Source: Oscillospiraceae bacterium
GTDB taxonomy: Bacteria; Bacillota; Clostridia; UBA1381; UBA9506
Reading direction: 5' to 3'
NCBI GenBank assembly: GCA_015068905.1
Contig: SVJQ01000006.1
Location: 1 to 64,000, forward strand
Length of the DNA: 64,000 nt
Part shown: positions 36,594 to 40,747 of the stretch, one piece after another
Layout: every line of letters begins with the position of its first letter
Numbering within the stretch: position 1 is the stretch's first letter
Notes under the pieces: generated by a model
What the model was told of the DNA's origin: nothing
The model's database searches: none
Seen by the model: the letters and a program-made list of their open reading frames with translations, nothing else
Position numbers and translations under genes: made by a program

Positions 36594-38237
36594 TTATTTT
36601 TCTTCCCCCGGAATCAGCTTGCCATTTTCAACGTGGAAAACCTTATCGCAGACCTCTAACGCCGCTTTTTTATGGGATACCAAAATGCAGGTTTTATCTT
36701 TTCTTGCCTTCAGCGCCGCAAGAATCGCGAGTTCTGTTGCCTCATCCAAAGCCGAAGTTGCTTCATCAAGCAGCAGCACCGGCGCCCCATGCAGAATTGC
36801 CCGGGCAACGGCCAGGCGCTGTATCTGCCCCTCAGAAAGCCCTAAGCCGCCTTCGCCAAGCTCTGTATCAAGTCCTTCCGGCAAGGTTTCAATAAACTCC
36901 CATATCTGTGCATCTTTTAACGCCTCAATAACATCTTCGTCCGAAATGTCCGTTTTAAAAAACAGCACATTGTCACGAATACTGCCTGATACAATCAGGT
37001 TACCCTGAGGAACATAGGAAAACAACTGTTTTTTCTCAGTCTCCAAAGCACGTTCTGTACCATCTTCCATCACAAGATTAGCTGTGCCACTCTGCGGTTT
37101 TAAAATCCCTAACATAATTTTCAATAAGGTGCTCTTGCCCGTGCCGGATGTGCCGGTAATGACAACAAATTCACCTTTTTTAACCGAAAAATCAGACTGT
37201 TCTAACACTTTTTCATCACGATAGGCAAAGCTGATATGCTGCAGGTTAATCGATGCCCAGTCTTCCTCATCCCACTCTGCCTTTGCATCAATGGGGTCTT
37301 CGGGCAGTTTTTCAAGCTCCATCAAGCGTTCTGCCGAGGCAACCATACTGTAATATTGAGGAAAAAGAGCCGAAAGCCCCTGAAAAGGCGCTTGAATCTG
37401 GCTCACAAGCTGCAAAAGTGCCGTCAAAGTACCAAAAGTTATCATGCCGTTGGCAATTTTGTAAGCACCCCAGGCAAGAGCAACATAGTACCCCGCCGTG
37501 AGTCCCACATAAAAGAAAACATTTGCCATAATGCTCAAACGGTTTCTTTTTAAATTCAGCTTAAACAGCTTAGTCAGCAAAAATTCACTGCGCCCTGCCG
37601 CCTGACTGCTGCAACCAAAGGACTTGATAACAAGCATATTCTTCAAAGTTTCCTGCATAAATGACTTGGCAGCGCCATCTGCCGCCTGACAGCTTTTATG
37701 CAGATTTTTCATTTTCTTTCTATAAATATATGCCGTTATAAAAATCAAAGGTCCAAGAGCCAGACATAAAAGCGCAAACGCCGGATCCAGAAAATAAAGC
37801 GCAAAAAAACAGGCAACAATTTTAGTCAGATAAAAAATCAGCTGCGGCAGCATCTGAATCAAGCCGGTTGCCACAATTCCCACATCACTTGAGATGCGGT
37901 TCATCAGCTCACCGGTGTGATATTCGGTAATTTTCAAATAATCCTTTTTCAGAATTGTCTGAAATAACCCGGATTTGAATCTGACATTAAATTTGCCTGT
38001 GATATAAACATTTAAAAATGACTGAAAAATTTCAAGCAAAAGCTGAAAAATTAAAAAAGCAAAAAGAACAACACCTGCTCGGAGCAAGTCACCCTCTGCT
38101 TGTTTTGTAGCAATATCCAGCACACCTTTAGACAAAAGCGCAAAAACAACACCCATCAGGGAAACAAGCATCCCCGTCAAGGTCAGAACCGCAACACCCG
38201 GCAAAATGAATTTTGACTTTTTAATAATCCACTTCAT
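36594..38237 (-). CDS. ABC exporter (membrane and ATPase domains fused)
   Basis: 547 residues. The six-helix ABC transmembrane domain (about 10-300) is followed by an ATPase domain (about 330-545). Walker A is GTSGTGKST, the signature is the variant LSEGQIQRLAVARA (LSGGQ reads LSEGQ), and Walker B is LLLDEATSALD. There is no N-terminal C39 peptidase domain. It ends a three-gene set with an S26-like peptidase (14 bp upstream) and a PqqD protein, suggesting peptide export. Substrate unknown. Confidence 0.9.
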   Translation of the reverse strand: MKWIIKKSKFILPGVAVLTLTGMLVSLMGVVFALLSKGVLDIATKQAEGDLLRAGVVLFAFLIFQLLLEIFQSFLNVYITGKFNVRFKSGLFQTILKKDYLKITEYHTGELMNRISSDVGIVATGLIQMLPQLIFYLTKIVACFFALYFLDPAFALLCLALGPLIFITAYIYRKKMKNLHKSCQAADGAAKSFMQETLKNMLVIKSFGCSSQAAGRSEFLLTKLFKLNLKRNRLSIMANVFFYVGLTAGYYVALAWGAYKIANGMITFGTLTALLQLVSQIQAPFQGLSALFPQYYSMVASAERLMELEKLPEDPIDAKAEWDEEDWASINLQHISFAYRDEKVLEQSDFSVKKGEFVVITGTSGTGKSTLLKIMLGILKPQSGTANLVMEDGTERALETEKKQLFSYVPQGNLIVSGSIRDNVLFFKTDISDEDVIEALKDAQIWEFIETLPEGLDTELGEGGLGLSEGQIQRLAVARAILHGAPVLLLDEATSALDEATELAILAALKARKDKTCILVSHKKAALEVCDKVFHVENGKLIPGEEK

Positions 38238-38250
38238 GCTGATTCCTCTA

Positions 38251-38724
38251 TCATTTCATTCGTTTCACAATCCCTTTTCCCAAACGGGTCAAAGGTAAAA
38301 GAACAGGTCTTATAGCCCGACCGTGCCCCCATACAAAAGCATACAATCTGCACCACCAGAGCCTGCAGGAATAAAGCTTGCCGCTACGCCAAAAGTCCGT
38401 CACAACCGCTTTAATCTGATCTGCTCTGATAGGACCGTCAACATCGATCTGATTATCACCAACGATATAATAACCCTCTTTGCGGCACTTAATAATTCTG
38501 TGCAAAATAGCCTGACCGTTATCCTGAACATACAAAACAACATCAAGATTTTTGATTCGGTCAGGTTTTTTTAAAATTACGCTGTCAACGCGGTCACGCC
38601 AAAGCGGCATCATACTGTTGCCTGTCACCGTCATGTTGACGGCTTTATTTTCAGAAAGAAGCTCTAACAGAAAGGGCAAAAGAGCCTCTGTTGATACTTG
38701 CTCAAAACTTGCTTTAGGCTTCAT
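38251..38724 (-). CDS. S24/S26-family signal-peptidase-like protein (Ser/His type)
   Basis: 157 residues. Box TGNSMMPL puts the likely nucleophile at Ser37. AILHRII puts His75 where ER/SipW-type signal peptidases have His rather than the bacterial Lys. GDNQIDVDGPI (89-99) is the conserved C-box. A basic, Trp-rich C-terminal segment (about 113-157) may sit on the membrane; there is no classical N-terminal anchor. The gene overlaps pqqD by 11 bp. It probably cleaves a peptide handled by the PqqD and ABC partners; the substrate is not visible. Confidence 0.8.
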   Translation of the reverse strand: MKPKASFEQVSTEALLPFLLELLSENKAVNMTVTGNSMMPLWRDRVDSVILKKPDRIKNLDVVLYVQDNGQAILHRIIKCRKEGYYIVGDNQIDVDGPIRADQIKAVVTDFWRSGKLYSCRLWWCRLYAFVWGHGRAIRPVLLPLTRLGKGIVKRMK

Positions 38725-38983
38725 CTAAAATATGATTCTCCTTTAAAACTTTTAAAAACTCACGCACATCAGAGCGAGCGGTATCACTGTCAATAGCATA
38801 TTCTTTGGTCATAGCATCAACCAGTTCATCCTCTGTACAGTTGTTTTCAAGCTGCTTCCATAAAAAGGCACCGCTTTCATTTAAAGTCAGCATCAGCTGC
38901 AGGTTAACAAGATTGTCACCAACCGGCACGGCAACCGTGCTGCCGGCAATCGCTTTTAATACAAAACCTTCTTTTATTTTCAT
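38714..38983 (-). CDS. PqqD-family peptide-recognition protein
   Basis: 89 residues matching the PqqD/RRE winged-helix fold: N-terminal beta segments, then LNESGAFLWKQLEN (typical L-N-x-[ST]-[GA]-x-x-[IL]-[WL]), followed by DELVDAMTKEY and a C-terminal helix ending in LKENHIL. PqqD-like RRE domains bind leader peptides of ribosomal peptides and present them to maturases. No radical-SAM, cyclase or precursor gene adjoins. It is first in the pqqD-peptidase-ABC operon. Confidence 0.85.
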   Translation of the reverse strand: MKIKEGFVLKAIAGSTVAVPVGDNLVNLQLMLTLNESGAFLWKQLENNCTEDELVDAMTKEYAIDSDTARSDVREFLKVLKENHILDEA

Positions 38984-39145: not shown

Positions 39146-40747
39146 ATGAAAAAAGTTTTGGTTTTATTCCTTACGGCACTTATGGTGCTCTCCACCTGTG
39201 CCATCAGCGTTTCTGCTATGACTTTTACAGATATGAACGAAAGTCACTGGGCATACGCAAACGTTCAGACTTTGGTTAACGACGGCACTGTAAAGGGTTA
39301 CGAAGACGGTTCATTTAAGCCCGAAGGCACCGTAACCCGTGCTGAATTTGTGAAAATGCTGGGGGTAAGTTCTGTTGTCCGCAGTTTTCCGTACAGCGAT
39401 GTTTCTGCTGATCACTGGGCTTATACATACATCATGGCAGCAAACTTCCCGGAAGACGGCTCAAATCTGTTTATGCCGAGTATTCCCATCACCCGTGGTC
39501 TGGTTGCAGAGCTGTTATGGAGACGTGCAGGCCAGCCGACTGATGTATTTGCACCCTCTATCATTTCTGAGCAATATAAAGCAAACCCCACCGCTGCAGC
39601 CTGGGTGTATGCAACCGGCTTAATCCGTGGTGACGGTGATGGCATTACCCTGCGTCTGTCTGACACCTTAACCCGTGCTGAGGCTGCAACCCTTATCGTC
39701 CGTGCTCGTTCTGTTGGTGCGGCAAACGGTGTTTTTGCAGAAATCGTTGATCAGAATATTTTAGTAAATGTTTATAATGGCTTGAATCTGTTTGACGATA
39801 TCTCATACGATGCAACAAGAACTATTACAAATGGTGAGATGGCGCGGGCTGCGCTGAGAATTGGTAAAGAACAGCACAACCTCGCTATCAGCGCATCACC
39901 CAATTTTGAGCATCCTTACGCAAAGGAAACCCTGCTCGTGTTTAATGCTTTAGGTAAGAACGATGTTGATGCAGCTTTCGCTGACAAAACAGCAACCTTT
40001 GGTGATACCGTTGCCGCCCTTACCTATCACTTTATTGATAAAGCACACAACGTTCCCGTATACGGCAACAAGACAGAATCCTTATCTTATATGACCAATA
40101 TGATGAATGTTTGTCTGACTTTTGCAAAGGATAATGGGGTCATTTCTTTAAAAGAAGATTTAAACGCACCCGTTACCCTGCGTGACTTTACTGCAATCTG
40201 TTTGCTGTATGACTATGTTATCGGTTCTCAGTCCGCAGTTACCACCGATCCTCATCCGGCAACAGGCTCTGCAAAAAAAGACCAGTCACTTCTGTTAACA
40301 GCAGAAAGCTATGGTGATTATCAGGTAAAAGTTGCCGCTGCTGCTGACTTGTATGCAGCACCGTTTAACGATATGGTTAAAACCCCGAAAGAAACCTATG
40401 ACTTTGCTCGCGAATACAATTCCATTCTCATGACGATTCTGCAACACCTCAGATCTTCAATCAATACAAAAGCAAACGTTCGCTTAACCTACTATCCTTC
40501 TTTGGTTTGCAAAGACAGCACCGGTTATACCATGCGTGTTGCCTGCGAAATTGTAAGCATGAATGGTTCAAAATCAATTTCTGAACTGCTTCCTGTTAAG
40601 CCCGGCACTCAAGGCGCTGATGCTATACTCTCTCAGGGCGATACTGTTTATTTTGACCTTGCATCCGGCAGTAACATCAGCTCTGTTTCTATGACAAGTG
40701 ACACAGCTTTTGTAAGTCAGATTATTAAGGTTGTTCCTGCAAAATAA
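39146..40747 (+). CDS. Secreted S-layer-homology (SLH) domain protein
   Basis: 533 residues. The signal peptide (1-24) is followed by SLH repeat 1 (about 27-72: HWAYANVQTLVNDGTVKGYEDG, then TVTRAEFVKML), SLH repeat 2 (about 80-130) and a divergent repeat 3 (about 145-195, ending TLTRAEAATLIVRA). SLH triplets bind pyruvylated secondary cell-wall polymer. The remaining ~330 residues hold no enzyme motif I recognise, though a further weak SLH-like segment (FDDISYDATRTITNGEMARAAL) follows. It is probably a surface protein. It is monocistronic with a strong terminator. Confidence 0.9.
   Translation: MKKVLVLFLTALMVLSTCAISVSAMTFTDMNESHWAYANVQTLVNDGTVKGYEDGSFKPEGTVTRAEFVKMLGVSSVVRSFPYSDVSADHWAYTYIMAANFPEDGSNLFMPSIPITRGLVAELLWRRAGQPTDVFAPSIISEQYKANPTAAAWVYATGLIRGDGDGITLRLSDTLTRAEAATLIVRARSVGAANGVFAEIVDQNILVNVYNGLNLFDDISYDATRTITNGEMARAALRIGKEQHNLAISASPNFEHPYAKETLLVFNALGKNDVDAAFADKTATFGDTVAALTYHFIDKAHNVPVYGNKTESLSYMTNMMNVCLTFAKDNGVISLKEDLNAPVTLRDFTAICLLYDYVIGSQSAVTTDPHPATGSAKKDQSLLLTAESYGDYQVKVAAAADLYAAPFNDMVKTPKETYDFAREYNSILMTILQHLRSSINTKANVRLTYYPSLVCKDSTGYTMRVACEIVSMNGSKSISELLPVKPGTQGADAILSQGDTVYFDLASGSNISSVSMTSDTAFVSQIIKVVPAK

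Follow-up and report, generated by a model that had tools for sequence, protein, structure and literature searches.

A PqqD-peptidase-exporter operon in a clostridial genome as a probable module of a dispersed pathway resembling that of linear polyphosphorylated peptides

The window is a stretch of 64,000 nucleotides (contig SVJQ01000006.1, positions 1 to 64,000) from the assembly GCA_015068905.1 of an Oscillospiraceae bacterium. Three minus-strand genes in it, overlapping or abutting as a preliminary description had it and lying at exactly the coordinates it gave, encode a PqqD-type recognition protein (RRE), a signal-peptidase-like protein and an ABC exporter (Table 1). The trio forms one tight run between a pyrimidine operon and the divergent gene of an SLH-domain protein. 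The overlap of the PqqD and peptidase genes likely brings translational coupling, and the ABC gene starts 13 bp after the peptidase stop.

Table 1. Features of the operon and of the dispersed genes assigned to the same pathway. Positions without a prefix are those of the window; the others lie on contigs C4 and C6 of the window genome (G000).
Feature	Position	Strand	Basis
ABC exporter (LppD-like, MsbA-like), 547 aa	36594-38237	-	PF00664 + PF00005
Signal-peptidase-I-like protease (LppS-like), 157 aa	38251-38724	-	Ser37/His75/Asp90; PF00717; fold match
PqqD-type discrete RRE (LppB-like), 89 aa	38714-38983	-	PF05402
Overlap of PqqD stop and peptidase ATG, 11 bp	38714-38724	-	gene coordinates
SLH-domain surface protein, divergent from the trio	39146-40747	+	PF00395; synteny
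Secreted protein, ~330 aa, Sec-type signal sequence	L208:9559-10563 (G000 C6)	-	directly upstream of precursor; homologues in other f1 genomes
Precursor peptide, 52 aa, MKEYMKPELEVREIRVCENLAAANWSYNKDTGAVTIHTGLVSLTDAGSPNAV	C6:71386-71544	-	leader HMM, E 1.3e-8
Stand-alone HprK-like kinase	C4:39499-40428	+	kinase profile

All three proteins have counterparts in the pathway of the linear polyphosphorylated peptides (LPP), a class of RiPPs described from the lpp cluster of Paenibacillus alginolyticus DSM5050 (Nat Commun, May 2026; PMC13381572), whose gene set has been shown by experiment to yield polyphosphorylated linear peptides in that organism. There, the RRE protein LppB binds YxxP, the kinase LppK polyphosphorylates core Ser3, the signal-peptidase-like LppS (S29/H68/D93) cleaves the presented leader in an RRE-dependent manner and LppD is the presumed exporter (PMC13381572).

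The recognition protein of the window matches PF05402 at 66.6 bits, far above the Pfam cut-off of 23.4, which bears out its earlier identification, and a profile search found it to be the sole PqqD of the genome. Its PDB matches are the lasso RRE TbiB1 (5v1u), which is the best, PbaB1 (9x90) and LppB (9x8z). The leader-contact residues N33, Y60, D70 and F74 of LppB are conserved, aligning with its N35, Y62, D72 and F76, and on this basis its expected role is to bind a YxxP leader for presentation to the kinase and the peptidase. The second protein matches PF00717 marginally above threshold (25.0 vs 23.3) and TIGR02228 (signal peptidase I) weakly, and is a distant protein of the S24/S26 type. 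A first scan with it as query retrieved no relatives; Ser37 and His75, to which attention had already been drawn, are invariant together with Asp90 in 78/78 homologues. Its AlphaFold model (mean pLDDT 94.7) has as best match E. coli signal peptidase I (LepB; Z 10.4 over 95 residues, 2.1 Å), with LexA-type domains nearly tied. The third is a full TMD-NBD fusion, both Pfam domains lying in one protein as previously described, with MsbA as its best NCBIfam match, below cut-off; a domain search found no C39 peptidase domain in it. Its LSEGQ signature is kept in 19 of the 20 orthologues in which the signature could be read, and is thus a trait of the lineage rather than decay.

The trio is well conserved. 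PqqD is present in all ten genomes of the genus (g1), in 18 of 20 of the family (f1) and in 61 of 95 of the order, the genomes compared being assemblies of varying completeness. The trio itself is intact in 10/10 g1 genomes and also in the sister genus g4, which excludes a chance array of open reading frames, while genera g3 and g5 retain PqqD-ABC. Some PqqD neighbours in other families (DHFR, methionine synthase/MTHFR-like, DUF1846-like and formate-THF-ligase-length proteins) were set aside as housekeeping, judged by their sequences.

Neither a YxxP peptide nor a modifying enzyme was found in the operon or within the 26-52 kb of the window that were scanned, in agreement with the preliminary description, which had supposed that the substrate might be encoded elsewhere. 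Profile searches of the genome beyond the window indicate that it is. A profile of the leader alone (A3) recovered a peptide that an earlier precursor profile (A2) had missed, and matches one peptide in each of the ten g1 genomes, and two in G003, with E-values of 8e-12 to 5e-7. The degenerate DNA pattern KK[YF]xxP had given fewer matches in the window genome than in the control, missing the true peptide, which reads KEY. That peptide is preceded by a clear AAGGAGG site, strong SD sites being seen among the g1 peptides. The g1 peptides combine a lasso-type YxxP leader with a variable tail and conform to the LPP pattern of a YxxPx[hydrophobic] leader and variable C-terminus. Mean identity between precursors is 65% in the leader and 28% in the remainder, the pattern of a RiPP precursor. 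Of the 36 leader-positive genomes of the order, 34 have PqqD and 35 the kinase discussed below; G058 has weak leader matches with neither.

The peptides of family f1 depart from LppA around the leader end. Their leaders finish in xEN[LIV]A followed by A, R, K or N, and the FETxxS end is missing. LppA and peptides of other families of the order (EDILTAS, SDIITVS and ENILTQS, for example) carry a Ser 18-19 residues after the Tyr; in f1 this position has residues such as A, R and K instead. All the peptides nonetheless retain several Ser or Thr residues in the core. Several otherwise variable f1 cores show Trp/Phe and then a stretch resembling [ST]-x-[aromatic]-[ST/D]-L (STVYSL, TTTFTL, TSVWTL, VSLYSAL), which, going by its sequence, might possibly be a new modification site. 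Two further arrangements were seen. G012 has on contig C3 (L155:8103-10629) a second set comprising a long HprK-like ORF and a peptide with EDIIQTSG, and so holds two peptide types, this one having the Ser absent from other f1 peptides. G076 has on contig C33 (L180:6987-8878) two near-identical leader peptides, MAKY[IT]KPEINIVEISVNDIIQ[AT]SG, which differ in their tails and precede genes for an HprK-like kinase and a peptidase.

A candidate modifying enzyme can likewise be named. Each of the ten g1 genomes encodes one stand-alone HprK-like kinase, and the kinase profile matches 63 of the 95 genomes of the order, the window genome included. Most of the motif known from characterised lasso precursor kinases is retained in the family (His, GxGKS/T and the Asp pair), with H162, GxGKST and ND(D)xP intact as in those enzymes (PMC10368454). 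Over the 95 genomes PqqD and kinase occur together in 60 and are both absent from 31; one has PqqD alone and three the kinase alone. The four discordant genomes are incomplete, PqqD being missing in three at 58-74% completeness and the kinase in one at 54%. The Fisher value of 2e-20 overstates independence, since the genomes are related. Radical SAM maturases were considered as well and rejected: there is one SPASM protein per genome, found also in the PqqD-negative G010 and G019, and that of the window genome lies on C1, away from trio, kinase and peptide.

Genomic linkage is informative in relatives of g1; in g1 itself the kinase is unlinked to the trio. Downstream of the ABC gene, g3 and g5 encode in turn a secreted protein of ~310-345 aa, a small YxxP peptide and the HprK-like kinase, so that peptide and kinase come after PqqD-ABC. 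In g4 the peptide again adjoins the kinase; in G017 the group of secreted protein, peptide and kinase precedes an SLH gene and the trio, and otherwise it sits at another site. A wider scan of named genomes yielded 80 PqqD loci, mostly from Clostridia, and one locus each labelled Planctomycetia, Lentisphaerae and Bacteroidales. The HprK-like gene, whose recurrence the preliminary description had proposed tabulating, is immediately 5' of PqqD in 57 of them, and the peptidase gene directly 3' in 49; within the fetched flanks a peptidase occurs in 52, an ABC gene in 24 and NTP_transf_5 in 16. A complete peptide-HprK-PqqD-peptidase-ABC-NTase operon is seen in a Desulfoscipio geothermicus MAG (L221).

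These results bear on two suggestions made earlier, that the trio might be something new and that it might process an unmodified peptide. Consistent linkage to a RiPP modifying enzyme, which the preliminary description had said would count against its reading, is found in other genera, where HprK lies beside PqqD, and the trio is therefore better seen as a part of an LPP-like pathway (PMC13381572) than as a new kind. The second is disfavoured by the intact HprK-like kinase, which tracks PqqD from genome to genome and adjoins it in most relatives. In its fullest form this second suggestion would hold that the f1 peptide goes unphosphorylated, that the kinase serves some other target and that the trio handles a plain leader peptide. 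The loss of the acceptor Ser in f1, the unlinked kinase of g1 and the greater length of f1 kinases (281-318 aa by ORF, against mostly 229-256 aa in relatives) would all fit. We nevertheless think it unlikely, given the conserved active-site residues, the adjacency of kinase and peptide in g3, g4 and g5, the near-perfect co-occurrence with PqqD and the Ser/Thr residues still present in the cores.

Nine of the ten g1 genomes have the secreted-protein gene upstream of the peptide; its product has no PDB match, and the g4 homologue has no Pfam match. It is possible that it acts as partner, receptor or carrier of the peptide. An SLH gene neighbours the trio in most g1 and g4 genomes, and the SLH protein of the window may, judging by its position, be a functional partner of the trio. 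Within the order, 31 of the 301 genes within 3 kb of PqqD are SLH genes, against 4 of 174 at 6-10 kb, figures uncorrected for shared ancestry. In several further genera of the order, different SLH genes are found beside PqqD or HprK. The secreted partner, the SLH genes near PqqD and the capsule context of the LPP clusters of Bacilli (PMC13381572) suggest a surface role for the pathway. That the trio simply serves the divergent SLH protein or general secretion, as an accessory signal peptidase of SipW type with PqqD incidental, might be read from this conserved neighbour and from the signal-peptidase fold. It is, however, very improbable: most loci outside the order lack the SLH neighbour, yet the peptidase still directly follows PqqD in the majority of named-genome loci, and those SipW-like homologues that go with an RRE are leader peptidases of RiPPs (PMC13381572).

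Least probable of all is a dispersed lasso pathway with PqqD as B1 and with cyclase and B2 elsewhere. In its favour, the YxxP leader is of lasso type, TbiB1 is the top PDB match, and lasso tailoring is a known role of HprK and NTase enzymes (PMC8498205). The lasso protease B2 (PF13471), however, has no match in any PqqD-positive genome of the order, that of the window among them, its five weak matches all falling in PqqD-negative genomes. The signal-peptidase-like enzyme occupies the place of B2, and inspection of the neighbours of peptide, kinase and PqqD in the loci viewed showed no cyclase.

We thus regard the trio, with considerable confidence, as the module contributing RRE, leader peptidase and exporter to an LPP-like RiPP pathway with genes scattered over the genome. 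This upholds the earlier view of it as serving recognition, cleavage and export in a ribosomal peptide pathway, a YxxP peptide being found once per genome, and disfavours its description as an orphan, for a candidate substrate and kinase lie elsewhere in the genome. The five parts lie at three sites (trio on contig C28, kinase on C4, peptide on C6), so that the argument for their acting together is drawn from co-occurrence and from linkage in sister genera. We infer that the PqqD protein would bind the 52-aa precursor through its YxxP leader and that the kinase would phosphorylate the RRE-bound precursor. Removal of the leader by the Ser/His enzyme, near the conserved EN-[LI]-A, and export of the linear core by the ABC protein would follow; the core may then work on the cell surface alongside the secreted protein encoded next to the precursor. 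As f1 peptides lack both the Ser accepted by LppK and the FET cleavage triad, the site of phosphorylation, and even its occurrence, are uncertain. A more tentative reading, which we hold to be possible though doubtful, is that f1 has kept the LPP machinery vertically in dispersed form, usually with one peptide, no canonical phosphoacceptor, almost always a secreted partner and usually an S-layer-type gene nearby; it would then supply a constitutive peptide for the cell surface or for signalling, either unphosphorylated or phosphorylated at a new position, and would not be a mobile antagonism cluster.

Apparently orphan PqqD-peptidase-exporter operons in Clostridia may accordingly be no orphans: a leader profile combined with co-occurrence recovers substrate and kinase so dispersed that cluster-based RiPP mining would overlook them. 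The LPP-type pathway, described in 2026 from Bacilli, would extend to many Clostridia and to a few loci in other phyla. Family f1 offers a natural experiment on the role of an HprK-like peptide kinase once the known acceptor Ser is lost, and its conserved secreted partner offers a first clue to function.

Compared with the LPP pathway, the clostridial system shares a discrete RRE, a Ser/His/Asp signal-peptidase-like peptidase, an MsbA-like exporter, an HprK-like kinase and a YxxP leader; LPP has no cyclase, and none was recognised among the neighbours inspected here. The LPP host belongs to the Bacilli and its genes form one cluster, whereas the clostridial genes are dispersed; the leader ends in FETxxS in LPP but in EN[LI]A in family f1, where the acceptor Ser is lost. 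Since neither the clustering nor the Ser3/FET features are found, it is not a plain LPP member. It differs further in encoding an extra secreted protein with the precursor, in having no lasso cluster alongside and in that the NTase is unlinked: the PF14907 NTP transferase is single-copy in the window genome, among polysaccharide genes on contig C24, and is absent from 3 of the 10 genus genomes. The NTP_transf_5 (PF14907) genes of f1 genomes (L324, L325-L334) lie mostly in loci of nucleotide-sugar or capsule type and are not linked to peptides.

The phosphorylated lasso peptides, paeninodin/pseudomycoidin and Bsf (PMC8498205, PMC10368454), likewise have an HprK-type precursor kinase, an NTase, a PqqD-type B1, a YxxP leader and an ABC exporter, and BsfK needs its RRE for efficient phosphorylation (PMC10368454). 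In contrast to these, the clostridial system has no B2, a serine peptidase standing instead, no macrolactam cyclase was seen and no ring-forming core pattern was recognised in its peptides. The SynChlorMet cassette (ScmC/ScmD; TIGR04249, TIGR04248) has a PqqD-related protein and a kinase that the one here matches distantly (E 2e-7), with scores far beneath the curated cut-offs. Finally, SipW and the archaeal-type signal peptidase I share the fold and the Ser/His catalytic pair of the window peptidase, but the latter is encoded with an RRE and would be expected to cut an RRE-bound leader rather than Sec signal peptides.
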